From the IMG/VR virus record IMGVR_UViG_3300049433_000139, positions 1 to 64,000 of that record: a stretch of DNA of 64,000 nucleotides, one strand, 5' to 3'. The position numbers and the translations under genes are program-made. Position 1 is the stretch's first letter; each line of letters opens with the position of its first letter. The notes beneath the pieces are model-generated. The model did no database searches. It had not been told where the DNA came from and saw only the letters and a list, made by a program, of their open reading frames with translations. Origin of the DNA: a virus. Below are positions 5,300-60,377 of the stretch, in pieces.

Positions 5300-5327
5300 A
5301 ACTTACCGCCAATTTGCAAAAAGTCAA
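5300..5327 (-). promoter_or_regulatory. Dispersed-type promoter P1, drives DUF4406 operon
   Basis: -35 TTGACT (5322-5327), 16-base spacer with TTTTGCAAAT, -10 TAAGTT (5300-5305), reading leftwards. One copy of the phage-wide promoter; the core on the + strand is TTTGCAAAAAGTCAACAG at 5313-5330. Confidence 0.8.
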
Positions 5328-5334
5328 CAGAAAT

Positions 5335-9408: not shown

Positions 9409-9437
9409 AAACTAGCACCGATTTTGCAAAAAGTCAA
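9409..9437 (-). promoter_or_regulatory. Dispersed-type promoter P2, drives lysis operon
   Basis: -35 TTGACT (9432-9437), 17-base spacer with TTTTGCAAAA, -10 TAGTTT (9409-9414), leftward. The + strand core is TTTGCAAAAAGTCAACAA at 9423-9440. Confidence 0.78.
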
Positions 9438-9506
9438 CAAATATAGAGGGACTTGTTCGAGGGATGGCTGCGGGTTAAGCTAGTCAGAATTGGGGAACTG
9501 AATAGC

Positions 9507-15110: not shown

Positions 15111-15160
15111 GTTATACCGCCTAAACTGGGAAAAGTCAACAATTTTGCAAAAAGTCGGCA
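15111..15160 (-). promoter_or_regulatory. Dispersed-type promoter P3 with a second upstream box, drives fibre operon
   Basis: -35 TTGACT (15134-15139), 17-base spacer beginning TTTCCCA, -10 TATAAC (15111-15116), leftward. Directly upstream lies a second element, + strand TTTGCAAAAAGTCGGCA at 15144-15160, which keeps the spacer box but has lost the TTGAC. This suggests a separate protein-binding site. Confidence 0.75.
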
Positions 15161-22969: not shown

Positions 22970-22998
22970 TTTATACCGCCAATTTTGCAAAAAGTCAA
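22970..22998 (-). promoter_or_regulatory. Dispersed-type promoter P4, drives tail operon
   Basis: -35 TTGACT (22993-22998), 17-base spacer with TTTTGCAAAA, -10 TATAAA (22970-22975), leftward. Best -10 of the set. The core on the + strand lies at 22984-23001. Confidence 0.83.
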
Positions 22999-23071
22999 CA
23001 GATAACGAAACGCCCTAGACACGGCCGGGTTGTGCAGATAGCATCCCGCGTTTTTGGGGTTCATACAGATC

Positions 23072-26715: not shown

Positions 26716-26743
26716 AACCTACAACCGATTTGCAAAAAGTCAA
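26716..26743 (-). promoter_or_regulatory. Dispersed-type promoter P5, drives head-joining operon
   Basis: -35 TTGACT (26738-26743), 16-base spacer with TTTTGCAAAT, -10 TAGGTT (26716-26721), leftward. A second TTTGCAAA palindrome overlaps the -10 (26710-26717), so two adjacent operator-like boxes are present. Confidence 0.82.
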
Positions 26744-26746
26744 CAG

Positions 26747-35889: not shown

Positions 35890-35917
35890 GCATGTAGGCA
35901 AATTTGTAAAAAGTCAA
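35890..35917 (-). promoter_or_regulatory. Dispersed-type promoter P6, drives 35.9-33.8 kb operon
   Basis: -35 TTGACT (35912-35917) with spacer box TTTTACAAA. The -10 is poorer: TACATG at 35891-35896 (15-base spacing) or CATGCT (17). Core on the + strand: TTTGTAAAAAGTCAACAG at 35903-35920. Confidence 0.65.
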
Positions 35918-35932
35918 CAGAAATCTGAGGAC

Positions 35933-36387: not shown

Positions 36388-36623
36388 CGTTCGCGCCCGC
36401 CCGCCAGAGATCGCGCCTTAACGGCATCTTCCGTTTCGTAAAAATGAAGTAGTTTCTTTGCCGAACTTGCTGCCTCTTTAGCATTGATTTGCATCCCGGC
36501 AACGTCTCCGCTTTCTTTCGCTCTCTTGTCGAGAAACGGTAATAACCACTCGATGTGTTGCGCTAAATCGCGCGTGGTTTGAACCAGTTTACGATATCGA
36601 TCTTCTTTTTCTTGCGCGATCAT
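36384..36623 (-). CDS. Small coiled-coil protein
   Basis: 79 residues, MIAQEKEDRYRKLVQTTRDL, then AQHIEWLLPFLDKRAKES; highly charged and helical, ending in Arg. Coupled to both neighbours by ATGA overlaps. Function unknown. Confidence 0.6.
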   Translation of the reverse strand: MIAQEKEDRYRKLVQTTRDLAQHIEWLLPFLDKRAKESGDVAGMQINAKEAASSAKKLLHFYETEDAVKARSLAGGRER

Positions 36624-36889
36624 TTCGCCGCTCCTAGAATTCGATAAACATACGCCCTACTACAACCAACCAATACCGCAATCCGCTCCACCACGATACC
36701 CTGCGCCGCCAGTCCGCGCACCATCCTTGGTGTGTCGGAGGTGGAGGTGCGGGCCTTCCTGGTGCGGTTGGAGCGGTGTTGGCGGAGGACGCCGTAGACG
36801 TAGCCGAGCGAGACGGGGAGGGACGCCGCGATCTCGGCGGGGTGCTTACCGGCGTCGTGGAGGGATAGGATTGCGGCGGTGTGATTCAT
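36620..36889 (-). CDS. Tandem helix-turn-helix protein
   Basis: 89 residues with two similar homeodomain-like units: ILSLHDAGKHPAEIAASLPV then SLGYVYGVLRQHR, and VRGLAAQGIVVERIAVLVGC then SRAYVYRIL. Each reads as a resolvase-type helix-turn-helix joined by a basic linker. A DNA-binding regulator or recombination helper of the phage. Confidence 0.7.
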   Translation of the reverse strand: MNHTAAILSLHDAGKHPAEIAASLPVSLGYVYGVLRQHRSNRTRKARTSTSDTPRMVRGLAAQGIVVERIAVLVGCSRAYVYRILGAAK

Positions 36890-37566: not shown

Positions 37567-37594
37567 AACCTACGCCAAATTTGCAAACAGTCAA
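37567..37594 (-). promoter_or_regulatory. Dispersed-type promoter P7
   Basis: -35 TTGACT (37589-37594), 16-base spacer with GTTTGCAAAT, -10 TAGGTT (37567-37572), leftward, driving genes 37541-35933. An upstream extension TTCAATTATG adjoins the -35, as at P8. Confidence 0.85.
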
Positions 37595-37672
37595 CACATA
37601 ATTGAACTGGTCACGGTTTAGTGAAACGCCAATTTATACAGCCACGCTTTACTTTTCGCCCCGCTCGCAAAC

Positions 37673-39849: not shown

Positions 39850-39877
39850 AACTTACACCAAATTTGCAAACAGTCAA
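39850..39877 (-). promoter_or_regulatory. Dispersed-type promoter P8, drives SF2 helicase operon
   Basis: -35 TTGACT (39872-39877), 16-base spacer with GTTTGCAAAT, -10 TAAGTT (39850-39855), leftward. The sequence around it is nearly identical to P7 for about 35 bases, including the TTCAATTATG extension. Confidence 0.85.
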
Positions 39878-39907
39878 CACATAATTGAACTAGTCACGCG
39901 GCTGTGA

Positions 39908-40987: not shown

Positions 40988-41015
40988 AAGCTACAACAAA
41001 TTTGCAAACAGTCAA
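40988..41015 (-). promoter_or_regulatory. Dispersed-type promoter P9
   Basis: -35 TTGACT (41010-41015), 16-base spacer with GTTTGCAAAT, -10 TAGCTT (40988-40993), leftward, driving genes 40980-39908. Confidence 0.82.
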
Positions 41016-41018
41016 CAA

Positions 41019-41972: not shown

Positions 41973-42205
41973 AAACCGGCCGCCCACTGTCCGCCGCAAG
42001 CCGTGATGGCTGCGCGCGCTTCGTCGCGCGTCTTAAACCCGTCAAGTTTCATATAATCGGATTGGATGGCGTATTCAGTGCGCGTTAAAATACTGGAGCG
42101 CACGAGATACGAAACGATATGATACTTCGTCCGCTCCAGCGTCTTGACGCCCACCATGTAGCGCAGCGTATAAGTGCCGTCGGCATTGGCTTCTGCTCCA
42201 GTCAC
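41969..42205 (-). CDS. Hypothetical protein
   Basis: 78 residues from GTG at 42205 (GTGA overlap with fic). VTGAEANADGTYTLRYMVGV, then TEYAIQSDYMKLDGFKTRDE. Possibly a small beta-alpha domain; no family recognised. It lies directly downstream of fic, but antitoxin motifs are not seen. Confidence 0.58.
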   Translation of the reverse strand: MTGAEANADGTYTLRYMVGVKTLERTKYHIVSYLVRSSILTRTEYAIQSDYMKLDGFKTRDEARAAITACGGQWAAGL

Positions 42206-42654
42206 GACTGCGCCTCCAATGTCTGATAATAAAAACGGTGCAGAAAGGGTAGCGCGAACGGATCCCGCCCCACCTTGTTCATATGCCACGCCCACAGAAT
42301 GCGCCCGGTGCGGCCGTTGCCGTCGGTGTAGGGATGCAGCATTTCGAACGCTATGTGGGTGTTAAAGGGTGTGTTGGGTTTGTGAATACCGATCAAGAGG
42401 TTGATAAGGCGCTCGCGTATCTCAGGTCCGCCGGCCGGCGCGATGTAGTTTCCAACGCGCACGTCGAGGCCCAGCCGATCCCTTAAGTCGTGGCCAGGTG
42501 CGAACGCTTGCTGGACGTCGTTCAAGTCCTGCAGCGTGAGGTTCGGTAGGGCGAGGAAGTGCCGCGCTGCGCCGACCTCGCTGAGTTTCGGATCGCGGTG
42601 GATGCCCTCGATCGCGTTCGATTCGCGGAGGAAGGCAGTGAGTCGACTTGTCAT
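42202..42654 (-). CDS. Fic-domain protein (AMPylase-type) with N-terminal inhibitory motif
   Basis: 150 residues from ATG at 42654. HPYTDGNGRTGR (107-118) is a complete Fic motif: catalytic His, phosphate-binding Asp-Gly-Asn-Gly-Arg and the last Arg. S12-N-A-I-E16-G17 fits the (S/T)xxxE(G/N) inhibitory helix, here at the N-terminus, so the enzyme may be self-restrained. Fic enzymes transfer AMP or other nucleotides to proteins. A toxin, host-modification or superinfection role is possible. It is preceded by a membrane mini protein with a 4-base overlap. Confidence 0.85.
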   Translation of the reverse strand: MTSRLTAFLRESNAIEGIHRDPKLSEVGAARHFLALPNLTLQDLNDVQQAFAPGHDLRDRLGLDVRVGNYIAPAGGPEIRERLINLLIGIHKPNTPFNTHIAFEMLHPYTDGNGRTGRILWAWHMNKVGRDPFALPFLHRFYYQTLEAQS

Positions 42655-42782
42655 AGCGTAACCCATCCCACCGCCCATATCGCAATAGCTATCACGACAT
42701 AACAAAACATCGCGAAACATACTAAAACAGTGTTATCCAAACTCGATAGACCGACTGAACTTGGTAGCGGAGGCGGAATCAC
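42651..42782 (-). CDS. 43-residue membrane protein coupled to fic
   Basis: GTG at 42782 overlaps the exonuclease stop and its own stop overlaps the fic ATG. A short N-terminal segment (VIPPPLPSSVGLSSLDNTVL) precedes one long membrane helix (VCFAMFCYVVIAIAIWAVGW). Tight coupling to fic suggests a shared role. Confidence 0.55.
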   Translation of the reverse strand: MIPPPLPSSVGLSSLDNTVLVCFAMFCYVVIAIAIWAVGWVTL

Positions 42783-43684: not shown

Positions 43685-43712
43685 AACCTACGCCGCATTT
43701 GCAAAAAGTCAA
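43685..43712 (-). promoter_or_regulatory. Dispersed-type promoter P10, drives Fic/peptidase operon
   Basis: -35 TTGACT (43707-43712), 16-base spacer with TTTTGCAAAT, -10 TAGGTT (43685-43690), leftward; genes 43650-41019 follow without a gap. The -35 lies in the last codons of the upstream gene. Confidence 0.85.
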
Positions 43713-44035
43713 CAGAAATCTAAAACGGCCGGCGTGACTTTCACATCGGCACACCCTATCCCCCACTGCATCAAACCCCGCGCCACCAGATCGTCAAGTT
43801 CGTCACGCCATAGGTAAGCGCGCCGGCCGGTGTCAGTGGTCGCGCGGAGCTGCGAGCAAACGAAGTACCATTGATGTTCTGTGACCAGGTAGCGGACGTG
43901 GAGCGCCAAGAAGCGGACCTGCGCTGGCGATAGGGGCTGTAGCGGCGGACTGGCGACGACGGGCACGCAGTCGCATTCGGGCCGGTGCTCGTGGCAGTTG
44001 CAGGTACGCGGAGGTAACGTGGTATGACAGGTCAC
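43709..44035 (-). CDS. Hypothetical protein with Cys/His-rich N-terminus
   Basis: 108 residues from GTG at 44035 (GTGA overlap). The start TCHTTLPPRTCNCHEHRPEC then DC could bind zinc. The middle (LSPAQVRFLALHVRYLVTEH) is helical. No family recognised. Ends over the -35 of P10. Confidence 0.6.
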   Translation of the reverse strand: MTCHTTLPPRTCNCHEHRPECDCVPVVASPPLQPLSPAQVRFLALHVRYLVTEHQWYFVCSQLRATTDTGRRAYLWRDELDDLVARGLMQWGIGCADVKVTPAVLDFC

Positions 44036-44707: not shown

Positions 44708-44735
44708 CAACCTACAACCGATTTGCAAAAAGTCA
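44708..44735 (-). promoter_or_regulatory. Dispersed-type promoter P11
   Basis: -35 TTGACT (44730-44735), 16-base spacer with TTTTGCAAAT, -10 TAGGTT (44708-44713), leftward, driving genes 44680-43709. The spacer and -10 equal those of P5. Confidence 0.85.
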
Positions 44736-45197
44736 ACAGTTAAATACAGGCAAGCCATCCACGGTCACGGTATCGTCGTCCATATCCACTGCGTCCGGCG
44801 AGCAGGAGAGGAGTTCGCATGTGGTTTCGACTATCCAGTCCCACCTATCCGCGCGGGCCAGGAGGGCAGTAGCCGCCGTTGAGCCATCCAAGCGGCGGAG
44901 CGTCACGCGCTTGTCAGGCACGTAAGCAGCGCCGCGCAGGAGTTCGGGCGAGCGGTCGCGCAGGGCGGAAAAGGGGAGGACAGCACAAAGCAAATCATCT
45001 GCAGTCGTGCCAGACTTTAACTGCGGTTGCGCTCCCTCCGTGCTCGGGCGAGAAAAGAACCGCTCGGCACTTGGCGCCCCTTGCTTCCTTAGCGTCTCAA
45101 CCGCAGCCGTTACCGCGAGCTGATGCTGCAGGGACGTTGCCGACCAGTCCAGCGCGGCGATGCGATCGGCGAGGGCGGCGTTTGTGAGGACGGTCAT
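44733..45197 (-). CDS. Hypothetical acidic protein
   Basis: 154 residues, MTVLTNAALADRIAALDWSA, then DDLLCAVLPFSALRDRSPEL and an acidic end (SCSPDAVDMDDDTVTVDGLP). Last gene of the P12 operon. No family recognised. Confidence 0.6.
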   Translation of the reverse strand: MTVLTNAALADRIAALDWSATSLQHQLAVTAAVETLRKQGAPSAERFFSRPSTEGAQPQLKSGTTADDLLCAVLPFSALRDRSPELLRGAAYVPDKRVTLRRLDGSTAATALLARADRWDWIVETTCELLSCSPDAVDMDDDTVTVDGLPVFNC

Positions 45198-46093: not shown

Positions 46094-46813
46094 CTAAAAA
46101 AGTTTCAGTGGCTCGGTATTTTCAACAGATAAGTGATATTTGCCCGTTTTAGGTTCAATTACGTGTTGACGTTGTTTGACCAGTTCGGCGCGAGCAATGG
46201 CGTTTTTGCGTTTTGAGGACAAACGAGGTTTTGAACGCGCAGGGGTGCGTAACTTGCGTTTCCGTCGCTTTATCATCTTCCGACCGCGCCGCTTTGCTGC
46301 CCCGCGCTCAATGGATTCTGCCGAGTGCTTCCGACCTTTGCTCGCGGCTCCAATTCGTGCCTTAGATTCTGGAGTGTGCTTTGGTTTCGGTATGGGTTTC
46401 GGCTTTGGTTTTCGACTCTGAACAGTAGCCAAGCGACGCTCAATCGACTCTCGTGAGTGTATCAAACCCGGAGCACCTTGACCGCCGAGAGTGGTGTTCG
46501 CACAAAGAGGCCAGAGCAACCGTAGCGTGGCTATCCAATAGCGCTCGCGTTCCGACCAATCACCATCCGCCTGCACGGTCTCCATAGTCTGCACGCGGAT
46601 GTGCTTACCGCAGCCACGTATCCACGCAGCAATCGCGCGGTGCGGGTGTTGCTTGGCGCCGTGGCGGTGCTCTGTGAGGCGTTTTTGTGCGGTGAAGATC
46701 GTTTTGCCGCAATAGAACGGGTATCCGTTCGACCAGCCGTTGGCGATCGTCTCGGGACGCGTATCAACGAGCCAATAGATTAGGGTTGGTGTGGAAACGG
46801 GACGGCGGGGCAC
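46094..46813 (-). CDS. GIY-YIG homing-type endonuclease with NUMOD3 repeats
   Basis: 239 residues from GTG at 46813. LIYWLVDTR and FYCGKT form the GIY-YIG core, with QKRLTEH and SERERYWIATL supplying the conserved Arg/His and Glu. HTPESKARIGAASKGRKHSA then ESIERGAAKRRGRK are NUMOD3 DNA-binding motifs. The long basic tail (KPKPKPIPKPKHT) is typical. It sits alone between two operons with its own promoter, as expected for a free-standing homing gene. Its last codons run through copies of the promoter-associated repeats. Confidence 0.87.
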   Translation of the reverse strand: MPRRPVSTPTLIYWLVDTRPETIANGWSNGYPFYCGKTIFTAQKRLTEHRHGAKQHPHRAIAAWIRGCGKHIRVQTMETVQADGDWSERERYWIATLRLLWPLCANTTLGGQGAPGLIHSRESIERRLATVQSRKPKPKPIPKPKHTPESKARIGAASKGRKHSAESIERGAAKRRGRKMIKRRKRKLRTPARSKPRLSSKRKNAIARAELVKQRQHVIEPKTGKYHLSVENTEPLKLF

Positions 46814-46819
46814 ATGAAA

Positions 46820-46847
46820 AATGTACCGGAATTTTGCAAAAAGTCAA
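46820..46847 (-). promoter_or_regulatory. Dispersed-type promoter P13, drives GIY-YIG gene
   Basis: -35 TTGACT (46842-46847), 16-base spacer with TTTTGCAAAA, -10 TACATT (46820-46825), leftward. The predicted transcription start coincides with the GTG at 46813. Confidence 0.78.
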
Positions 46848-46921
46848 CAGAATAGGGCGTATCTAGCAAAGTCCATCGACATCCGCTACAACCCGTCCCG
46901 ACCGACGCGGAGGGAAACAGC

Positions 46922-47209: not shown

Positions 47210-48827
47210 CAGGCAGTGCGACGCGTGGCGGCATGAACGCTGCTATCCTGGTGGCCAGCCATCTGAATTTGGGAACCGCCCAACTGTTACCAAGGCTTTT
47301 ATAGCGCGGCCCGTCAGGGCAGGCGAGAGCGAGTTTGCGGCGCCATGGTATTGCCGTGTAGTCGGGTGACCACCAACGGCCGCTGTGGTCCTGCCACGCG
47401 CCGGGATAGGATGCGTGGACGCGAAACTGGAAACCCTGCAGGCGCTCGCACTCACGGGGCGTGAGACGTCGGACGGCCGAAGTGAGCACATGCGGCTTGT
47501 CACCACCACCACTGCTCGCGCGCAGCGCAAAGGCGCAGTCGTCGCCGAGTTCTGCCGTGCCGCCACCTTCACGGCCGCGCAGGGCTACTGTCATAGCAAC
47601 AGCCAAGTGACCGCCACCATTTTGATGCGAGTTGGAGTGTCCCATGGCACGCATTGTACTGGCGATTTCTCCAACGCCGAAACCTGATTGACCCGATGCC
47701 TTGCAATCGAATGCTATAATCGGCGTGCCTCGCCCTGTCCCATCCTCGCTTCCGTCCGCGCCTTCTGCTTTGAGAGCGTGAGATATCGGGCCGGTAACGC
47801 TCGTGACCGCAAGCATGGTGGTCGATTCGTAGTCTTGTGACGAACCCTCGCGCGTAGCGACACAACGCGCGAGTTGGGGAATGTACGTCTGCAGCGTGTC
47901 GTCGAAACTATCGTTACCCTTGGCCAATAGCGGACGAGACAGGACGGGTAGGAGGCCGCCGTCTAAGTCGAAATAGGTTCCAAGCCCGCCACCACCTGTA
48001 GTGCGGCTTGCAATTGTTCCGGTAACTCTTTGCCCCGCTTCTCTGCTCGGCGGAGAATCCCTGCGCACGCCTTCCGGCTCAAAAAGTACTGCGGCGGGAT
48101 CGGCCCCGTTTCCAAAATCTGCGACAACGATGACACGCTCGCGTCGTTGGGCCAACTGAAAGTATTGAGCGTCCTTGACAGTCCACGCGGCGCGTCCTTT
48201 GGGTCCAATGACCACCCCGCTTCGAGGCCACTTGATGTAGTGTGACTTGTGTTTGGCGCTCCATCCCCACTGCCGGGAAGCGCGACCGGGCAAAGGGGCG
48301 GGCTCGGTAGGAATGAAGGCTGTTGCTGCTCCGACAAGTCCCGCAAGAAAGCATCCAAACGCATTATCTTTGGTGCTGAGCACGCCGGGGACATTTTCCC
48401 ACACGACGTTGCGGAGTCCATTACCATCAACAAGTTCATGTGCGAGTCCTACGAATGCTAAGGTTAGGTTTCCGCGGGCGTCGTCCAGCGATGCGCGATT
48501 GCCGGCGATGGAAAAGGCTTGGCAGGGCGTGCCGCCACAGAGCACGTCAACGCGACCGAGGCGCGAAGTGCAGACCTTGGTAAAATCGCCGTGGTTGAGC
48601 ACGCGGGGGTAGTGGTGACGCAGGACAGCGGAGGGAAACGGTTCAATCTCAGCGAAACCTACGGGACGCCAACCGAGCGGTGTCCACGCAACGCTTGCGG
48701 CCTCGATGCCGGAACAAACGGAAAAGAAGCGGATATCCGGTCCAAACAGGGACCACGTTGCGTCTTGCAGGGATGTGCCTTGGTAGAGGACGTTGCGGCC
48801 TCGCCTAGTAGTGATGAGCACACTCAT
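47202..48827 (-). CDS. C5-cytosine DNA methyltransferase
   Basis: 541 residues from ATG at 48827 (ATGA overlap). FFSVCSGIEAASVAW is motif I, GGTPCQAFSIAG with catalytic C102 is motif IV, ENVPGV is VI, QLAQRRERVIVVA is VIII, and RRLTPRECERLQGF and YKSLGNSWAVP are IX and X. The target-recognition region (about 270-450) is long. No partner restriction nuclease is adjacent, so an orphan phage methylase protecting against host restriction is likely. Confidence 0.92.
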   Translation of the reverse strand: MSVLITTRRGRNVLYQGTSLQDATWSLFGPDIRFFSVCSGIEAASVAWTPLGWRPVGFAEIEPFPSAVLRHHYPRVLNHGDFTKVCTSRLGRVDVLCGGTPCQAFSIAGNRASLDDARGNLTLAFVGLAHELVDGNGLRNVVWENVPGVLSTKDNAFGCFLAGLVGAATAFIPTEPAPLPGRASRQWGWSAKHKSHYIKWPRSGVVIGPKGRAAWTVKDAQYFQLAQRRERVIVVADFGNGADPAAVLFEPEGVRRDSPPSREAGQRVTGTIASRTTGGGGLGTYFDLDGGLLPVLSRPLLAKGNDSFDDTLQTYIPQLARCVATREGSSQDYESTTMLAVTSVTGPISHALKAEGADGSEDGTGRGTPIIAFDCKASGQSGFGVGEIASTMRAMGHSNSHQNGGGHLAVAMTVALRGREGGGTAELGDDCAFALRASSGGGDKPHVLTSAVRRLTPRECERLQGFQFRVHASYPGAWQDHSGRWWSPDYTAIPWRRKLALACPDGPRYKSLGNSWAVPKFRWLATRIAAFMPPRVALPAN

Positions 48828-51481
48828 TGGTGTGCCTTGCTTATCCCAACCAACGGCCGCCCGTGGCTGTCCGACCCGACGGTGTAGCGAACCCCGAGCC
48901 GGGGAATATCGGCGATATGCGCAGCGGAGCCGCGCACCCAAACCGCCGCGCGCTTGCCGTGAACCGTTGTTTTCTCCTGGCGAAAGCCCATGCGCTTCAT
49001 GATTGCGCCGCGTGCCGATGTGGCGCCGCCGTTGCGCCAACCGCACAGACTGGCGAGCTGTACCAAGTCCGCCGCTGTGATGTAGGACAGTGTGGCGGTG
49101 TGCTCTGCCGGCGCGAACCAATCCTGCAAAAGGACTTCCATGTCGGAAGCGGAACGCGCGGCTTCCTGATGCTCTGTAGCGGTTCCCCAAACGCTGCGGG
49201 GCAGGGCGAAGTCCGCTCCTTTAGACTCAAGGGCGGCAGCCTCGCCAAGTAGGGCGCGGATGTTGTCGGACAACCACTGCAGGTTCAACTCGCCTGGCAT
49301 GGCGACGGGCAGGAAGCGGCGGTTGCCAGTCGGATCCTGCAGCGGTTCGTCGCCGTTGACCGTGCCCAAGAAGATGTTGCGGCGGGGACGATTGGATACG
49401 GAACGCGCGTAGGCAGTGCGGCCGCGATCGACCTGGCGCGAAAGCATCGCCTTCACGTGATCGACGTTAGCGCTGTTGCGCTGCCCCATTTCGCCGATTT
49501 CAACAAGGCACTTGCCGGCAAGCGAAAGCACCAGCTCTTTACTGGCGTCGCCGAGTAACACCTCGTCCGAAAACCACTCGGTTGAGCGCCGTGCCAGTTC
49601 GGAAAGGGAGGACTTACCCATGTCGGCAATGATGGTCGCAATAGTCGACTTGCCGGTGCCTTGTGGTCCGAAAAATACCGCCATGAAATCGTGCTTGCAG
49701 CCGGGTTGCCGAATACGCCGCACCATGCCGCCGATGATGTTGCGGGACACGGCTTGGTGATACGGATCGCAGGGAGTCCCTGCGGTATGGGAAAGCCACG
49801 TCGAGAGGCGCGGCGAGCCGTCCCATTCGGCTTCGAGGGCGGCGAGGGTGTCGCGTGCAGGATCAACCGCGTTGGTATATGCGATGCTTTCCAGTGATTC
49901 CCAAAAGAACCGATCGGCCGGCCGGAACCGGATTTCTGTTCGATTACCGCGCGTGCGCAGTTTGGAAATTACGCTGTCATCAACAAAGGTCCAATCCGCC
50001 CAACGCAATTCATCGTCCACGCCGCCTTTTATTTCCATCCGTTCGAGCCACAGGTTCCAGCGTATTTCGAGGGAAAGCTGCGCGAGGAAGACAATGCAGT
50101 TGTCTGAGTTGTCGTTCTGAATTTCGCCTTTGTGGTCGCGCTTCCAGTCGTCGATGGTAACGAAGGCGCGTTCTACCTTGTTCGAAAAGGCGTTACCTGC
50201 GTGCTTGATCTTTGAATCGGGCAGCGTGCGGCCCATAGCGCGGACACGTCGGCAAACCGCTTCGAAAATATCCGGATGCACGTTCTGCAGAATACCTAAG
50301 ACGTCAATGACGCGGCTTGGAAGGAACTTCTGTGGCGGTTCCGCCATGGCTACGACACGGGATATAGCGTCGTTTAAGAGGTGGTAGAGGCCGTGGGCGT
50401 TGAGCGTGGGCGGAAGGGTGGGAACGTCGTCAGAAAGAGGGCGAGACGGCGCGTCGGACGTGGCTGCCAGAAACTCACGTAGGATTGCTTCGCCGTACTC
50501 GGCTTGCTTCTCGCCGCGGCCGAGCATGGGAATGCCAGCGGAGTGGAGGGTGGCGCCCGTGGCGGCGGCGAGGGCAGCAACGCCGTCGAACATCGCGGCG
50601 GAGGACTTGCGGATGGTGCCGTGCCAGCCGAGCGAATGGGCACGCTGCATAAAAGTGTTGAGCGTGACGGATTGCGGCGTGGGGTCGGTGGCGAAGGATT
50701 GCCACTTAGACGCCGCTTCCGAAGGGGTGCCTGGATTAGAATCGAAGGTAAGTTCCCAAAGCTCGAATCCGCTTTCCCCTTGGTCAAGCTTCAAAGCCAT
50801 TCCAATAGAAACCCAATCCTCGTAGGCGGTGAAAACGTCGCGTTCCGAGAGCCACGTCAAGAGGGCGGCAACGTCGCCTTGATCGCGGCTACCTGGCGGC
50901 GTACCTTGGGAGGTGCGCGGCGTAGTCGAGCGCATGCAGTGGGCAAGTAGTGCGTCGGGGCAGGGGTGTGGCGGCGCATTAGACATGAGCAGATAGGGGA
51001 GCGACTCGCCGTTCTCTAAATAGGTACTGCCGGCGGCGACCGTGTACCCTACCGCACGAACATTGATGCGTTTTTTTATTGCGTCGGGCTGGCGGAGTTG
51101 GGAGGCGTCGATGTGTGGCGGCACTGCGCAGTATACGTGCCACCCGCCTCTGGCCGACTGCACTGCAGGCGCAAGCGGGCCGGGCAAACCCCAATCCGCA
51201 CACAGTGAGCACCACAGCGACCACGCTTCGGTGCGGCCCGCTTCGCCGCCGGATGCGTCAATATCAACGATCACGAGATGCGATGCGAACGCGACGATTC
51301 CAAAGTTGCAATTTTCGTTTTCAGCGGCCCACTTTTTCCACTGTTCGGGATCGCGGCTAAAATCGTGTTTAAACGAACCTACGATTCCCGTGGGCGATTT
51401 GTTGCCCTTGGGAATTGGAAAAAGAGCCGCACCGTTGGCTGCGTAGTACGCAAGGTCGGTGGACAGAGCAGTGTCGTTCAT
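48824..51481 (-). CDS. Primase-polymerase / VapE-type ATPase fusion
   Basis: 885 residues. Residues 1-200 are a Prim-Pol domain: VIVDIDASGG with D73 and D75 as metal ligands, and GGWHVYC. The C-terminal half is the virulence-associated E (VirE/VapE) P-loop domain: FFGPQGTGKSTIATI, VEIGEMGQRNSANVDHVKAM, then NIFLGTVNGDEPLQDPTGNR and RFLPV. The fusion would prime and unwind at the phage origin. It lies in the P14 operon between two methyltransferases. Confidence 0.88.
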   Translation of the reverse strand: MNDTALSTDLAYYAANGAALFPIPKGNKSPTGIVGSFKHDFSRDPEQWKKWAAENENCNFGIVAFASHLVIVDIDASGGEAGRTEAWSLWCSLCADWGLPGPLAPAVQSARGGWHVYCAVPPHIDASQLRQPDAIKKRINVRAVGYTVAAGSTYLENGESLPYLLMSNAPPHPCPDALLAHCMRSTTPRTSQGTPPGSRDQGDVAALLTWLSERDVFTAYEDWVSIGMALKLDQGESGFELWELTFDSNPGTPSEAASKWQSFATDPTPQSVTLNTFMQRAHSLGWHGTIRKSSAAMFDGVAALAAATGATLHSAGIPMLGRGEKQAEYGEAILREFLAATSDAPSRPLSDDVPTLPPTLNAHGLYHLLNDAISRVVAMAEPPQKFLPSRVIDVLGILQNVHPDIFEAVCRRVRAMGRTLPDSKIKHAGNAFSNKVERAFVTIDDWKRDHKGEIQNDNSDNCIVFLAQLSLEIRWNLWLERMEIKGGVDDELRWADWTFVDDSVISKLRTRGNRTEIRFRPADRFFWESLESIAYTNAVDPARDTLAALEAEWDGSPRLSTWLSHTAGTPCDPYHQAVSRNIIGGMVRRIRQPGCKHDFMAVFFGPQGTGKSTIATIIADMGKSSLSELARRSTEWFSDEVLLGDASKELVLSLAGKCLVEIGEMGQRNSANVDHVKAMLSRQVDRGRTAYARSVSNRPRRNIFLGTVNGDEPLQDPTGNRRFLPVAMPGELNLQWLSDNIRALLGEAAALESKGADFALPRSVWGTATEHQEAARSASDMEVLLQDWFAPAEHTATLSYITAADLVQLASLCGWRNGGATSARGAIMKRMGFRQEKTTVHGKRAAVWVRGSAAHIADIPRLGVRYTVGSDSHGRPLVGISKAHQ

Positions 51482-54822: not shown

Positions 54823-54850
54823 AAAATGCACCAAATTTGTAAAAAGTCAA
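54823..54850 (-). promoter_or_regulatory. Dispersed-type promoter P14, drives leftward replication operon
   Basis: -35 TTGACT (54845-54850), 16-base spacer with TTTTACAAAT, -10 CATTTT (54823-54828), leftward. Controls genes 54813 to 47202 (SNF2 helicase, HNH, methyltransferases, VapE). Confidence 0.7.
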
Positions 54851-54956
54851 CAGAAGTCCGGAACGTTCACAAGAAATGTGCGGCATGGAAAAAGGAACTA
54901 CTGCAGCGCTTGCTCGGCAAAACGCAACAGTTAGTAGCAACGGCGGCGGGCGGGTA

Positions 54957-55358
54957 CTACTTCGGCCGCCAGTTCGTGCCCTTCTCTTTCAGTTCACGGA
55001 TCAGGCGCTTCGTGAGGCCGTCCTGCGGGTTGATCCCCTTATCGCCGAGCGCCTTGATTGTTTTGGTCAACTCGCGGGCGTCCTCAATCGAAATATACTC
55101 GTCGCCCTTGTTCAAAACGCCCAACTTGAGCAGGCACCGTTCCTCGCCGCAGAAATAATTCGCGGACAACGTAATAGACCCGCTCGGCAGTACAGTGTAT
55201 CGCAGGCCCGTCACCATGTCGTCGGACAGGTTCGCCCGCGTCATAAGACTCTTGCCGTTTTGCAAATCCTTAGCGATGACAAACAGGGTTGCTTCTGTAA
55301 ATTTAGTACCCTTCTTCATAGCTTGCCGTTCGCCCTCTCGAACATATTGACGCGCCAT
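54957..55358 (-). CDS. Stand-alone integrase-arm-like DNA-binding protein at the transcription switch
   Basis: 133 residues with a strong ribosome site (GGAGGTG, 7-9 bases before ATG). TGLRYTVLPSGSITLSANYF, then LLKLGVLNKGDEYISIEDAR and DKGINPQDGLTKRL, resembles the arm-type (DUF4102/AP2-like) N-terminal domain of tyrosine integrases. In those enzymes G-L-R-x-V-x-P-S-G and S-x-x-x-A-R...G-x-x-P are typical. No catalytic domain follows, and the end at 54957 is close to the next promoter. It may be a DNA-binding regulator, an excision helper or a remnant integrase. It has its own promoter facing away from the right arm. Confidence 0.6.
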   Translation of the reverse strand: MARQYVREGERQAMKKGTKFTEATLFVIAKDLQNGKSLMTRANLSDDMVTGLRYTVLPSGSITLSANYFCGEERCLLKLGVLNKGDEYISIEDARELTKTIKALGDKGINPQDGLTKRLIRELKEKGTNWRPK

Positions 55359-55388
55359 AATTAATCACCTCCAAAAGTACCGTTGCGA

Positions 55389-55418
55389 GTTGTAGAGCGC
55401 AAAACATTGGGGTGTCAA
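55389..55418 (-). promoter_or_regulatory. Promoter of the integrase-arm-like gene
   Basis: TTGACA (55413-55418), 18-base spacer, TACAAC (55389-55394), leftward, 31 bases before the ATG. It lacks the TTTGCAAA box, unlike the surrounding promoters, so it may be active when the others are repressed. Confidence 0.65.
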
Positions 55419-55531
55419 TGAAAAAGATTGCAATAAGTGTTGACTTTTGGCAAAAGCAGCGGACGGGCCGGATTCGCCCCAACTGGGCAAGCTGCCGTCT
55501 CAGAAACAAGTGGCGATCTTTTACAAATCTG

Positions 55532-55559
55532 TTGACTTTTCCCAAAGTGCGTCTAGAAA
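55532..55559 (+). promoter_or_regulatory. Rightward dispersed-type promoter PR1
   Basis: TTGACT (55532-55537), 16-base spacer with TTTCCCAAAG, TAGAAA (55554-55559), rightward, driving 55601-60347. A second TGTTGACTTTTGGCAAAA lies 92 bases upstream (55438-55455) without a usable -10, perhaps an extra operator. Confidence 0.75.
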
Positions 55560-55600: not shown

Positions 55601-56266
55601 ATGTCAATTCGAATTACTCTGACGCCGGTCAACCATTCGGTGGATTTCGAGGTCGGCTCGCCTGAGGAAGGAATCTCCTTCGTTACCGAAAAGGGCGCGG
55701 CGCTGACGGCGCTGCTCGACGTGCTGGATCGGTTGCCCAAGGGCGATACGGCACTGGCAACGGAAACGGCGGCCCATGGCGAACCGGCCAAGGAACGCAA
55801 GCCGCGCGGCCCGAACAAGCCGAAGGTGGACGCCGTAGCCCCGGCGCCGTTGGCCATACCGAGTGCAGCGCTTCCCGCTCCCCCGGCGCCTTTGGCAGGA
55901 ACCGCCCCGATTGCGCCGGCCACCGCGCCCCAAGGCGACGACATGCCCGCATTCCTGAAACGTGACGCCAACAACGCATCGCCGGCCATTCCCGCCCCGG
56001 CCGCTCCCCCGCCGCCCTTGGCTCCGCCCGCGCCTCCCGTTCCGGCCGCTCCGCCGCCCACGGGCGTGCTTGCGGAAAAGATCATTGCGAACTTGGACGC
56101 GCGCGCGAAGGGCACTCCGGATGGCGGCAAGTCGATCGCCGATTGGCTCGCCGGTCCCGGCTGCGGCATCACGGTTCCGGGCGCGACTTATGCCGAAGCC
56201 ATCGCCGTGATTCGTATGACGGCGGATGCGAAGCTGGAACCGCTGTTGCCGGCGTTGGGCCTGTAA
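55601..56266 (+). CDS. Pro/Ala-rich early protein
   Basis: 221 residues from ATG at 55601 (GGGGA about 10 bases upstream); the longer reading from 55412 would start before the promoter. Residues 1-45 are a small beta domain (MSIRITLTPVNHSVDFEVGS). A long Pro/Ala linker (about 70-155) leads to a helical C-terminal domain (SIADWLAGPGCGITVPGATY, then AEAIAVIRMTADAKLEPLL). First gene of the right arm; function unknown. Confidence 0.65.
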   Translation: MSIRITLTPVNHSVDFEVGSPEEGISFVTEKGAALTALLDVLDRLPKGDTALATETAAHGEPAKERKPRGPNKPKVDAVAPAPLAIPSAALPAPPAPLAGTAPIAPATAPQGDDMPAFLKRDANNASPAIPAPAAPPPPLAPPAPPVPAAPPPTGVLAEKIIANLDARAKGTPDGGKSIADWLAGPGCGITVPGATYAEAIAVIRMTADAKLEPLLPALGL

Positions 56267-57593: not shown

Positions 57594-58732
57594 ACGCGCA
57601 CATCGACCCCAACGCCGCTCATGCCGTTTACGCCCCTTCAAGCGCGCACCGCTGGACCGTCTGCACCGCGAGCGCCACGGCGATTGCCGCCATGCAGCGG
57701 GTCGTGACGCTGGACGAACACGAGGCCGCAGAAAACGGGACTGCGGCGCATGACGAAATCGAGCGCATATTGGGGCAGTTTAACGGCCAGATAGTCGAGC
57801 CGGAAGCCCTCAGAGCTGCGGCGGCCGATTTGCTCGATTTCGATCACCCCGCCGCTTACGGCATCGCGCTTACGATCAACTATGTTGCGGGCCTTCCCGC
57901 CGGCCGCGTTTGGATTGAACAGCGTGTTGCGCTTACGGACCAGATTTGGGGCCGCTGTGACATTGCCCATTGGCACGAAGATTCGGAAACGCTTACCATC
58001 GTGGACTATAAAAATGGGTTTGTCGGCGTCGACGCCGAAGAAAACGAGCAGCTCCGAATCTACGGCGCCGCGTCGATTTACACACATCGCCTCGTTGCCG
58101 CGCAGTGGATCCGGTACGCAGTAGTGCAGCCGAACGATTTCATGCCAGGGCCGCGCGTCAAGCAGTGGGTGGAAAGTGCTACGGACCTGTTTGCATGGGC
58201 GGAAAAGACTGCCGCCATCCCACGCGGGCCGCTCGTTTTTAAGTTCGGCCCGAGCCAATGCCGCGATTGCCCTTTGCTTGGAACGTGCGCGCCGACAAAG
58301 GACGTACTGGCGCAATTCGCCGCAGTGGTCGCTACCGGCACCGACCCGACGCCCGCGCAGATACCGCTTTTCGTGGCGCTCAAAAAACCCATAGACCATT
58401 TCTTTGAAGGGCTGATGAAAAACGGCACCAAGAAAGCCTTGGCGGGGTCCGTTCCGCCGGGCATGAAACTGGTCACCGCCGTGAAGCATCGGCAGTGGAA
58501 ATCGGAGGCCGATGCGCGGGCCGCCGTGCTTGCTGCGAAGGGCGTCGAGGCGCTGAAACCGCCGACGCCGGCACAAGCGGAGGATATGGGAATCGACATA
58601 TCGGGACTTGCGGACAAGCCCGAGGGCGGCCCGGCGCTGGCGTTTGAGTCGGATAAGCGGAAACCTTGGGCTAGGAAGGGCGTCGACGAGATGTTCAAGG
58701 GCGTGGCGGATTTGACGGGAGGTGGGAAGTGA
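57590..58732 (+). CDS. DUF2800 protein, RecB/Cas4-like PD-(D/E)xK nuclease
   Basis: 380 residues. GRCDIAHWHEDSETLTIVDY, then KNG...EENEQLRIYGAA, contains the D, D-x-K and Q-x-x-x-Y signature of the fold; CRDCPLLGTC (about 224-233) matches the Cas4-like iron-sulfur or zinc Cys set. DUF2800 and DUF2815 genes form a conserved pair in phage replication modules with DNA polymerase, VapE and SNF2 helicase, all present here. Likely a DNA end-processing nuclease. Confidence 0.87.
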   Translation: MNAHIDPNAAHAVYAPSSAHRWTVCTASATAIAAMQRVVTLDEHEAAENGTAAHDEIERILGQFNGQIVEPEALRAAAADLLDFDHPAAYGIALTINYVAGLPAGRVWIEQRVALTDQIWGRCDIAHWHEDSETLTIVDYKNGFVGVDAEENEQLRIYGAASIYTHRLVAAQWIRYAVVQPNDFMPGPRVKQWVESATDLFAWAEKTAAIPRGPLVFKFGPSQCRDCPLLGTCAPTKDVLAQFAAVVATGTDPTPAQIPLFVALKKPIDHFFEGLMKNGTKKALAGSVPPGMKLVTAVKHRQWKSEADARAAVLAAKGVEALKPPTPAQAEDMGIDISGLADKPEGGPALAFESDKRKPWARKGVDEMFKGVADLTGGGK

Positions 58733-60129
58733 CCATAACCGGAGACGACCTTATCCGATGGGGATACACCCCCGGCCCGTGGTTCAAGGCTGCGATCGCG
58801 CACGCCGCAACTCTGCCGGACCTTGACGAAGCGGACATGCGCGCCGCCCTTTCCCGCTTCGCACCCGCTCCTGTCGTGTTTCAAACAAGGCGCGAATCGG
58901 GCGCGCTCCCGTTCCACGTCAATCTTGAAGCGGACACACCCGACGAAGTAGCCAACGCCGCGGCGGTTGCCGAGCACATGGCGGAGCTGATGCGCGTGCC
59001 CACCATCCGCGCGGGCGCTGTGATGCCAGATGCGTGCCCGGCCGGCTCGGCTAAAGGCACAATTCCCGTTGGTGGCATTGTTGCAGCGGAGAACGCTATC
59101 CATCCTGGTTACCATTCGGCGGATATTTGCTGCTCAATGGCTATTTCCATTTTCGAAAGTGGCACGGACCCCGGCGCGGTGCTCGACGCAGGCATGAAGT
59201 TGTCGCACTTCGGCGCGGGCGGTCGACCGCACAGCCACGATATGCGCCCATCCGATTTGCTTCTTTCGCAGTTCGAAAGCAACCGCTTTCTTTCGACCAC
59301 AACGGAGGCGGCAACGCGTCATTTCGGAACGCAGGGTGACGGGAATCATTTTTTCTACGTCGGCGTAGTGAAGTCCACAGGACAAGTCGCGCTTGTCACG
59401 CATCACGGCTCGCGCAAACCGGGCGCACTGCTCTACAAGGCGGGTATGGCAGTGGCGGAACGCGAAACCAGGAAGATCGCGCCCTCGGTGCCGAAGCATC
59501 AGGCATGGATTGTTGCCGATTCGGACGAAGGGCAGGACTACTGGAAAGCGCTACAGATCATTCGCACCTGGACAAAAAAGAATCACTTCGTCATTCACGA
59601 CGCGGTGACCAAGTACGTTGGCACGCGCGTAAAGGATCGATTCTGGAACGAGCACAATTTCGTTTGGCAAAAGTCAGATGGTCTCTTTTATCACGGTAAG
59701 GGCGCAACGCCCGCGTTCCCCTATTTCGCGCCGGATACGAACGGTCTCACGTTGATTCCCATGAATATGGCCGAACCGATCCTAATCACGCGCGGCCTTG
59801 ATGCACCGAATGGGTTGGGTTTCTCGCCTCACGGCGCCGGCCGTAACTTGAGCCGTACCGGGTTCAAGCGTCAGTTGGGGAACCATGCGGACGAGGCGGC
59901 ATTACACACGGCGGCCGGTCTCGTTCCCGGTATCGACGCGCGGTGGTTTTCGGGAACGCCGGATACTAGCGAAATGCCTGGCGCATACAAAAACGCCGCG
60001 AGTGTCCGGCGGCAGATAGCCACGTTCGGATTGGCTGAAATCGTCGACGAAGTGATGCCATATGGTTGCATCATGGCCGGGGAAGTCGACTGGCGGCGCG
60101 CGGGAAAAGAGATGGGAGCGGATGCATGA
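58729..60129 (+). CDS. RtcB-family RNA ligase
   Basis: 466 residues. RtcB features: MPDACPAGSAKGTIPVGGIV then AAENAIHPGYHSADICCSMA, with the Asp and Cys that bind manganese; FGTQGDGNHFFYVG, THHGSRKPG and SPHGAGRNLSR, which holds the guanylylated His. RtcB seals RNA with 2',3'-cyclic phosphate or 3'-phosphate ends using GTP. In an early phage operon it may repair tRNA cut by host anticodon nucleases. GTGA/ATGA overlaps link it to both neighbours. Confidence 0.88.
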   Translation: MTITGDDLIRWGYTPGPWFKAAIAHAATLPDLDEADMRAALSRFAPAPVVFQTRRESGALPFHVNLEADTPDEVANAAAVAEHMAELMRVPTIRAGAVMPDACPAGSAKGTIPVGGIVAAENAIHPGYHSADICCSMAISIFESGTDPGAVLDAGMKLSHFGAGGRPHSHDMRPSDLLLSQFESNRFLSTTTEAATRHFGTQGDGNHFFYVGVVKSTGQVALVTHHGSRKPGALLYKAGMAVAERETRKIAPSVPKHQAWIVADSDEGQDYWKALQIIRTWTKKNHFVIHDAVTKYVGTRVKDRFWNEHNFVWQKSDGLFYHGKGATPAFPYFAPDTNGLTLIPMNMAEPILITRGLDAPNGLGFSPHGAGRNLSRTGFKRQLGNHADEAALHTAAGLVPGIDARWFSGTPDTSEMPGAYKNAASVRRQIATFGLAEIVDEVMPYGCIMAGEVDWRRAGKEMGADA

Positions 60130-60347: not shown

Positions 60348-60349
60348 TG

Positions 60350-60377
60350 TTGACTTTTCCCAAATACGCCGTAAGTT
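60350..60377 (+). promoter_or_regulatory. Rightward dispersed-type promoter PR2
   Basis: TTGACT (60350-60355), 16-base spacer with TTTCCCAAAT, TAAGTT (60372-60377), rightward, 38 bases before the DUF2815 ATG. Near-consensus; shares the CCCAAA form of the spacer box with PR1 and P3. Confidence 0.83.

Follow-up and report, generated by a model that had tools for sequence, protein, structure and literature searches.

The 133-residue protein encoded at positions 54957-55358 of the window, the 64,000-nt stretch of phage DNA analyzed here, is a stand-alone Arm-DNA-bind_3 (PF13356/DUF4102) protein, an integrase arm domain without a catalytic domain. Its gene lies between leftward- and rightward-transcribed genes, and promoters carrying a repeated box point outward from it across the phage. 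On the strength of these sequence patterns, we think it somewhat probable that the arm-only protein would bind over the −35 and spacer regions of the boxes and act there as a master regulator, with repression the more likely effect.

An integrase arm domain without a catalytic partner

The window is part of an 83,752-nt virus record, termed G0, the ends of which look bacterial. Related phages and prophages, including the virus records G1 to G5, were found using as bait a conserved neighbor of the arm gene, a Prim-Pol/VapE primase-helicase (48824-51481, minus strand). An initial annotation made from the letters of the window had singled out the 133-residue open reading frame as a candidate master regulator, and the features that it listed were recovered on reanalysis. 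The frame occupies exactly the reported coordinates on the minus strand, begins with ATG and encodes the motifs GLRYTVLPSG, IEDAR and KGINPQ. Its strong ribosome site is a near-perfect Shine-Dalgarno sequence, GGAGGTGATT (55363-55372, minus strand). The likely promoter (55389-55418, minus strand) combines TTGACA (55418-55413), an 18-bp spacer and TACAAC (55394-55389) and is distinct from those described below in lacking the box extension. This arrangement, TTGACA without a box, recurs upstream of the arm gene in G1 and G2, while a boxed promoter takes its place in G4 and G5. The reported position between leftward and rightward genes likewise held and is conserved in relatives, where the arm gene adjoins the divergent proline-rich gene found here at 55601-56266 (plus strand).

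The domain assignment was examined at the level of both sequence and fold. PF13356 provided the only Pfam match in the protein (residues 43-113, E = 5.2e-5), with a score of 23.7 bits that is slightly under the curated cut-off of 27. P0001 (the window protein), P0002 and P0003 (from G2) all scored just under this cut-off (22.9-23.7 bits), six relatives scored singly all exceeded it (32.7-42.9 bits), and all eight members of the family alignment matched over most of the profile. The catalytic domain PF00589, which a tyrosine integrase carries in the same protein, is missing from the 133-aa protein and, according to the Pfam scan, from the whole 83,752-nt record. In a profile search of PDB sequences, significant E values were obtained only for the integrase arm domains 3JU0 (1.9e-6) and 3JTZ (1.7e-5). 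An AlphaFold2 model built on the alignment of eight family members reached a pLDDT of 83.6. Foldseek comparison of this model to the PDB placed integrase arm domains first, in agreement with the proposed fold: the best three matches were those of the HAI7, HPI and P4-like integrases, with probabilities of 0.99-1.00 and a best E value of 1.2e-3, no match falling under 0.001.

Box promoters and their candidate readers

The initial annotation had also described dispersed boxes, which it took to be short direct repeats. The boxes are real, with 17 matches to GTTGACTTTTTGCAAA at up to three mismatches in the window versus 0.53 expected from shuffles, but they are not simply direct repeats. Each is an approximately 16-bp element embedded in a promoter and has a weak, inverted second half. 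The boxes are promoters in which a phage-specific element occupies the spacer between a GTTGAC −35 and a −10. A −10-like hexamer lies 16-18 bp downstream of the GTTGAC −35, and the mean −10 match score exceeded every one of 500 shuffles in seven phages (G5 contributing only seven boxes). Regulation of the LexA type was considered and rejected: the pattern GTTC-N7-GTTC occurred at chance level in the window, with none near the arm gene.

Several boxes flank the arm gene itself. A half-site, GTTGACTTTTGGCAAA (55439-55454, plus strand), lies just upstream of the arm promoter and points right. It is followed by a degenerate copy, GGCGATCTTTTACAAA (55512-55527, plus strand), which is a direct repeat of the rightward promoter box GTTGACTTTTCCCAAA (55531-55546, plus strand; TAGAAA at 16 bp); half-site and degenerate copy are both kept in G1. 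Downstream of the arm gene, GTTGACTTTTTACAAA (54836-54851, minus strand) marks a leftward promoter. Pattern scans located further boxes on the minus strand, five of them exact (46833-46848, 44722-44737, 43698-43713, 26729-26744 and 9423-9438), together with those at 41001-41016, 39863-39878, 37580-37595 and 35903-35918. The same strand carries two more exact boxes, one followed by TATAAA at 17 bp (22984-22999) and one forming a full dyad, GTTGACTTTTTGCAAA/TTGGCGGTAAGTTAAC (5313-5328), as well as a copy with two mismatches (15144-15159) accompanied by a second direct copy, GTTGACTTTTCCCAGT, at about 15140. On the plus strand, a box at 60349-60364 belongs to the rightward promoter of an SSB-like gene.

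Among sense-oriented boxes, counted with GTTGAC held constant, the minus strand carries all 14 of those to the left of the arm gene, and the plus strand carries five of the seven to its right. The box promoters point outward from the arm gene. The prophage carries many near-identical, operator-like sites aligned with transcription. Direct box copies are found at 55512/55531, next to the arm gene, as well as at ~15,140/15,159 and ~70,284/70,303. The last of these pairs, GTTGACTTACACCAT and GTTGACTTTTGCCAT, sits between the last leftward gene and a tRNA piece (record 70265-70310) and could be either a boxed promoter or excision sites. In G0-G2, the best symmetry axis paired two 16-bp halves in a 32-bp dyad (z 4.4-6.0), and one clear case, GTTGACAGTCGGCCAGTAAGCCGACTATAAAC, lies beside the arm gene of L029, an Afipia metagenome-assembled genome (MAG). 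Since scores above the null were also obtained for axes of 35 and 43 bp, and the symmetry is weak in G3-G5, a dimer of the arm protein on this weak 16 + 16-bp dyad is put forward as a suggestion only.

Other features of the phage were noted alongside. Box promoters stand ahead of two genes for related proteins that look GIY-YIG/NUMOD-like by eye (window 46094-46813; record 65387-66082), in each case within about 10-35 nt. The left arm encodes a Fic/DOC-domain protein (window 42202-42720). A 466-aa protein that is RtcB RNA ligase-like by eye (window 58729-60129) is 91% identical in G1, an unusually high value. Short repeats unrelated to the boxes are also present, with GCGCCAACCTC units in G1 and ACCTCCGTAGTGCG units in G3, at 11-26 copies per phage.

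Comparison among phages separated the box into a constant and a variable part. GTTGAC was found in every phage, while the spacer element differs from phage to phage: TTTTTGCAAA in G0 and G1, TTTCCGTATAA in G2, AGTAAACG in G3, AAAC in G4, AAACTAC in G5, AGTCGGC in L029 and AATCGGCA in G075. Between G0 and G1, which have identical boxes, the arm protein ranks second by identity among 59 shared proteins, and all differences between the two arm proteins lie outside the predicted DNA-binding sheet of the model. For phages with different boxes, its rank was 18/31 (G2), 32/36 (G3) and 20/21 (G4). Comparing G4 with G5 shows no more than their general relatedness, as arm identity there is no higher than primase identity. 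This informal comparison, based on few independent box classes (about seven), reveals a pattern that a regulator coevolving with its operators would be expected to produce. In L024, a primase relative without an arm gene, no repeated element followed GTTGAC in 15.8 kb of a 20.8-kb fragment, the shortness of which makes this weak evidence; host flanks likewise contained no repeated element after GTTGAC. Box pattern scans of viral contigs returned mostly chance single matches, along with unlinked G4/G5-group fragments that do not include the arm region, and thus provide no test of co-occurrence.

The same comparison bears on whether another phage protein reads the boxes, most plausibly an 89-aa helix-turn-helix (HTH) protein (36620-36889) or, in some phages, a CtrA-like regulator, with the arm protein acting elsewhere, for example at att sites or the replication origin. 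We consider this unlikely, although the HTH protein is conserved in G0-G4 with a significant HTH match, the arm gene adjoins replication genes and box-like direct copies occur near the integrase end (~70.28-70.30 kb). The HTH gene sits within the left arm, away from the hub, and the identity of its product, at ranks 26/59 (G1), 24/31 (G2), 23/36 (G3) and 11/21 (G4), does not follow box identity. A response regulator that is CtrA-like by eye (record 66598-67500, L007:2598-3500) combines receiver and Trans_reg_C domains and has matches in G1, G2 and G3. It was rejected as a universal box reader because it has no blastp match in G4, although G4 has the box network. The arm protein gene, on the other hand, occupies the divergence in all relatives for which that region is covered.

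If the arm protein does read the boxes, it might activate rather than repress their promoters, for instance through contact with RNA polymerase at the −35 in the manner of a class II activator. The location of the element in the spacer just after the −35 would suit such a role, as would the imperfect −10 elements of many G0 boxes (TAAGTT, TAGGTT). We nonetheless regard activation as improbable. Box promoters in G3, G4 and G5 carry the consensus −35 TTGACA, and some G3 boxes additionally have TATAGT at 17 bp, a combination that would not need an activator. Moreover, repression of a promoter that overlaps its own sites is described for an arm-bearing integrase, KplE1 IntS (PMC2951348). Repression by the arm protein would be the most likely effect, given that the boxes lie inside promoters with a good −35, matching the consensus in several phages, and a recognizable −10. 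Finally, we regard as very improbable a scheme in which no phage regulator takes part and host proteins recognize the boxes as ordinary sigma70 promoters of the host. Although −35 and −10 elements are present, the ~10 near-invariant extra spacer bases differ from phage to phage and cannot be a shared host signal.

The arm-only family and the integrases of its phages

Arm-only genes were identified in G0, G1 (95% identity), G2 (48%), G3, G4, G5, the Afipia MAG (L029), G075 and G260, amounting to ten stand-alone arm proteins in nine genomes or records with identities of 27-95%. Each close relative has such a gene. G075 and G260 emerged as two further members from a scan of 392 genomes of the family to which the Afipia MAG belongs, in which seven weaker matches were integrases of 390-475 aa. 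At E 1e-12, 385 sampled genomes from the class yielded no further arm-only member, and searches of phages and plasmids yielded only integrase arm domains with ~28-35% identity. PHROG 3423 (157 positions, annotated as of unknown function) matches seven of the ten family members and may contain other stand-alone arm proteins.

A C-terminal extension, GLxxRLIxELxxxGxxWRP, is common to all members and was not seen in the seven integrases compared. In a midpoint-rooted tree of 17 arm domains, the ten stand-alone proteins were split from seven integrases, all from one bacterial family, with support of 99/98. The arm gene is under strong purifying selection, with a dN/dS of 0.032/0.585 = 0.05 between G0 and G1. 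Its context is similarly stable: the same divergence and the same neighboring genes were found in eight of nine genomes with an arm gene, which lies beside the divergent proline-rich gene or in a matching position in all cases except G260. In that genome, an apparent remnant prophage beside a tRNA contains an intact arm-only gene (L142:10320-10775), and the host genes around it correspond to those of the window's left bacterial flank. G4 contains two tandem arm-only genes (L022:5037-5848) that overlap by 4 nt and are 42% identical, possibly a translationally coupled pair working together.

The initial annotation had named a split integrase, with its catalytic part elsewhere in relatives, as an alternative origin of the open reading frame. 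The relatives carry the arm domain alone at this position, and tyrosine-integrase matches were detected elsewhere in the genome in four of them (above the cut-off in G1, G2 and G3, below it in G4). In the phage under study, a 427-aa gene adjoining an apparent tRNA 3′ end (record 68695-69978, L007:4695-5978) is probably its own, very divergent tyrosine integrase. The encoded protein gave no Pfam, PHROG or PDB match, hhalign was negative and the AlphaFold2 model was poor; homologues annotated as hypothetical occur in Sinorhizobium, Bradyrhizobium and Microcystis phages. Although nothing follows the arm domain in the 133-aa protein, we reject as scarcely conceivable the idea that it is the 5′ remnant of a disrupted integrase, in view of an arm-only family at the same locus, with nine genomes or records in all and one tandem pair, its separate clade and extension, the low dN/dS and the integrase matches located elsewhere.

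A putative arm-domain master repressor

The proposal of the initial annotation withstood both of the refutations that it had named, a structural mismatch with arm domains and a disrupted integrase, while its argument from direct repeats holds only in part. The regulator role proposed for the arm protein is supported indirectly by the covariation of box and protein and by the outward orientation of the network. We suggest that the arm protein would read the phage-specific boxes through its β-sheet, perhaps as a dimer on the 32-bp dyad, and thereby occupy the −35 and spacer of about twenty outward-pointing promoters. The effect would most likely be repression, making the protein a master repressor of the immunity type in a temperate phage, expressed in the window phage from its own promoter without a box.

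Two precedents, KplE1 IntS and SPβ MrpR, make an arm-domain repressor plausible. MrpR (YopR), the closest known system, for which function was tested, is a recombinase-fold master repressor derived from a tyrosine recombinase, and its repeated element, SPBRE, serves as a dispersed operator in intergenic regions of the prophage (PMC10516654). It consists of core-binding and degenerate catalytic domains, and the text of the MrpR paper makes no mention of an arm-binding domain (PMC10516654); the protein studied here, with a putative function, has only the arm domain and lacks the core-binding and catalytic-like domains that characterize the MrpR family. KplE1 IntS is a complete integrase whose repression is confined to its own promoter (PMC2951348), in contrast to the network described here. 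The stoperators of cluster A mycobacteriophages offer a parallel in the layout of the sites, with >20 asymmetric sites across the genome that are oriented with transcription and read by one small repressor (PMC9283540). Those repressors comprise an HTH and a helical stoperator domain, and many stoperators block elongation (PMC9283540), whereas the sites here are promoters and their reader would be a β-sheet arm domain. The arm domains of IntSXT/P4-like integrases (HPI, HAI7; PDB 3JTZ, 3JU0, 3RMP) belong to the same sequence family and are the top structural matches, but they form the N-terminal part of an ~400-aa recombinase and bind att arms; here, the domain is a separate gene product with its own C-terminal extension.

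We found no description in the open-access literature of an arm domain alone in a master-regulator role, and this use, which was also new to the initial annotation, appears to be undescribed. The chances seem to us about even that these phages represent a new class of master repressor, a free-standing transcription factor that arose from an integrase arm domain, with each phage lineage having evolved its own operator, and presumably its own immunity group, on a constant GTTGAC promoter frame. Phage master repressors are known from only a few DNA-binding folds, which the integrase arm domain would, if this is true, join. A site-selection module of mobile elements could then turn into a family of transcription factors, and the ready-made regulator-operator pairs of differing specificity would make an arm-domain recognition code testable.
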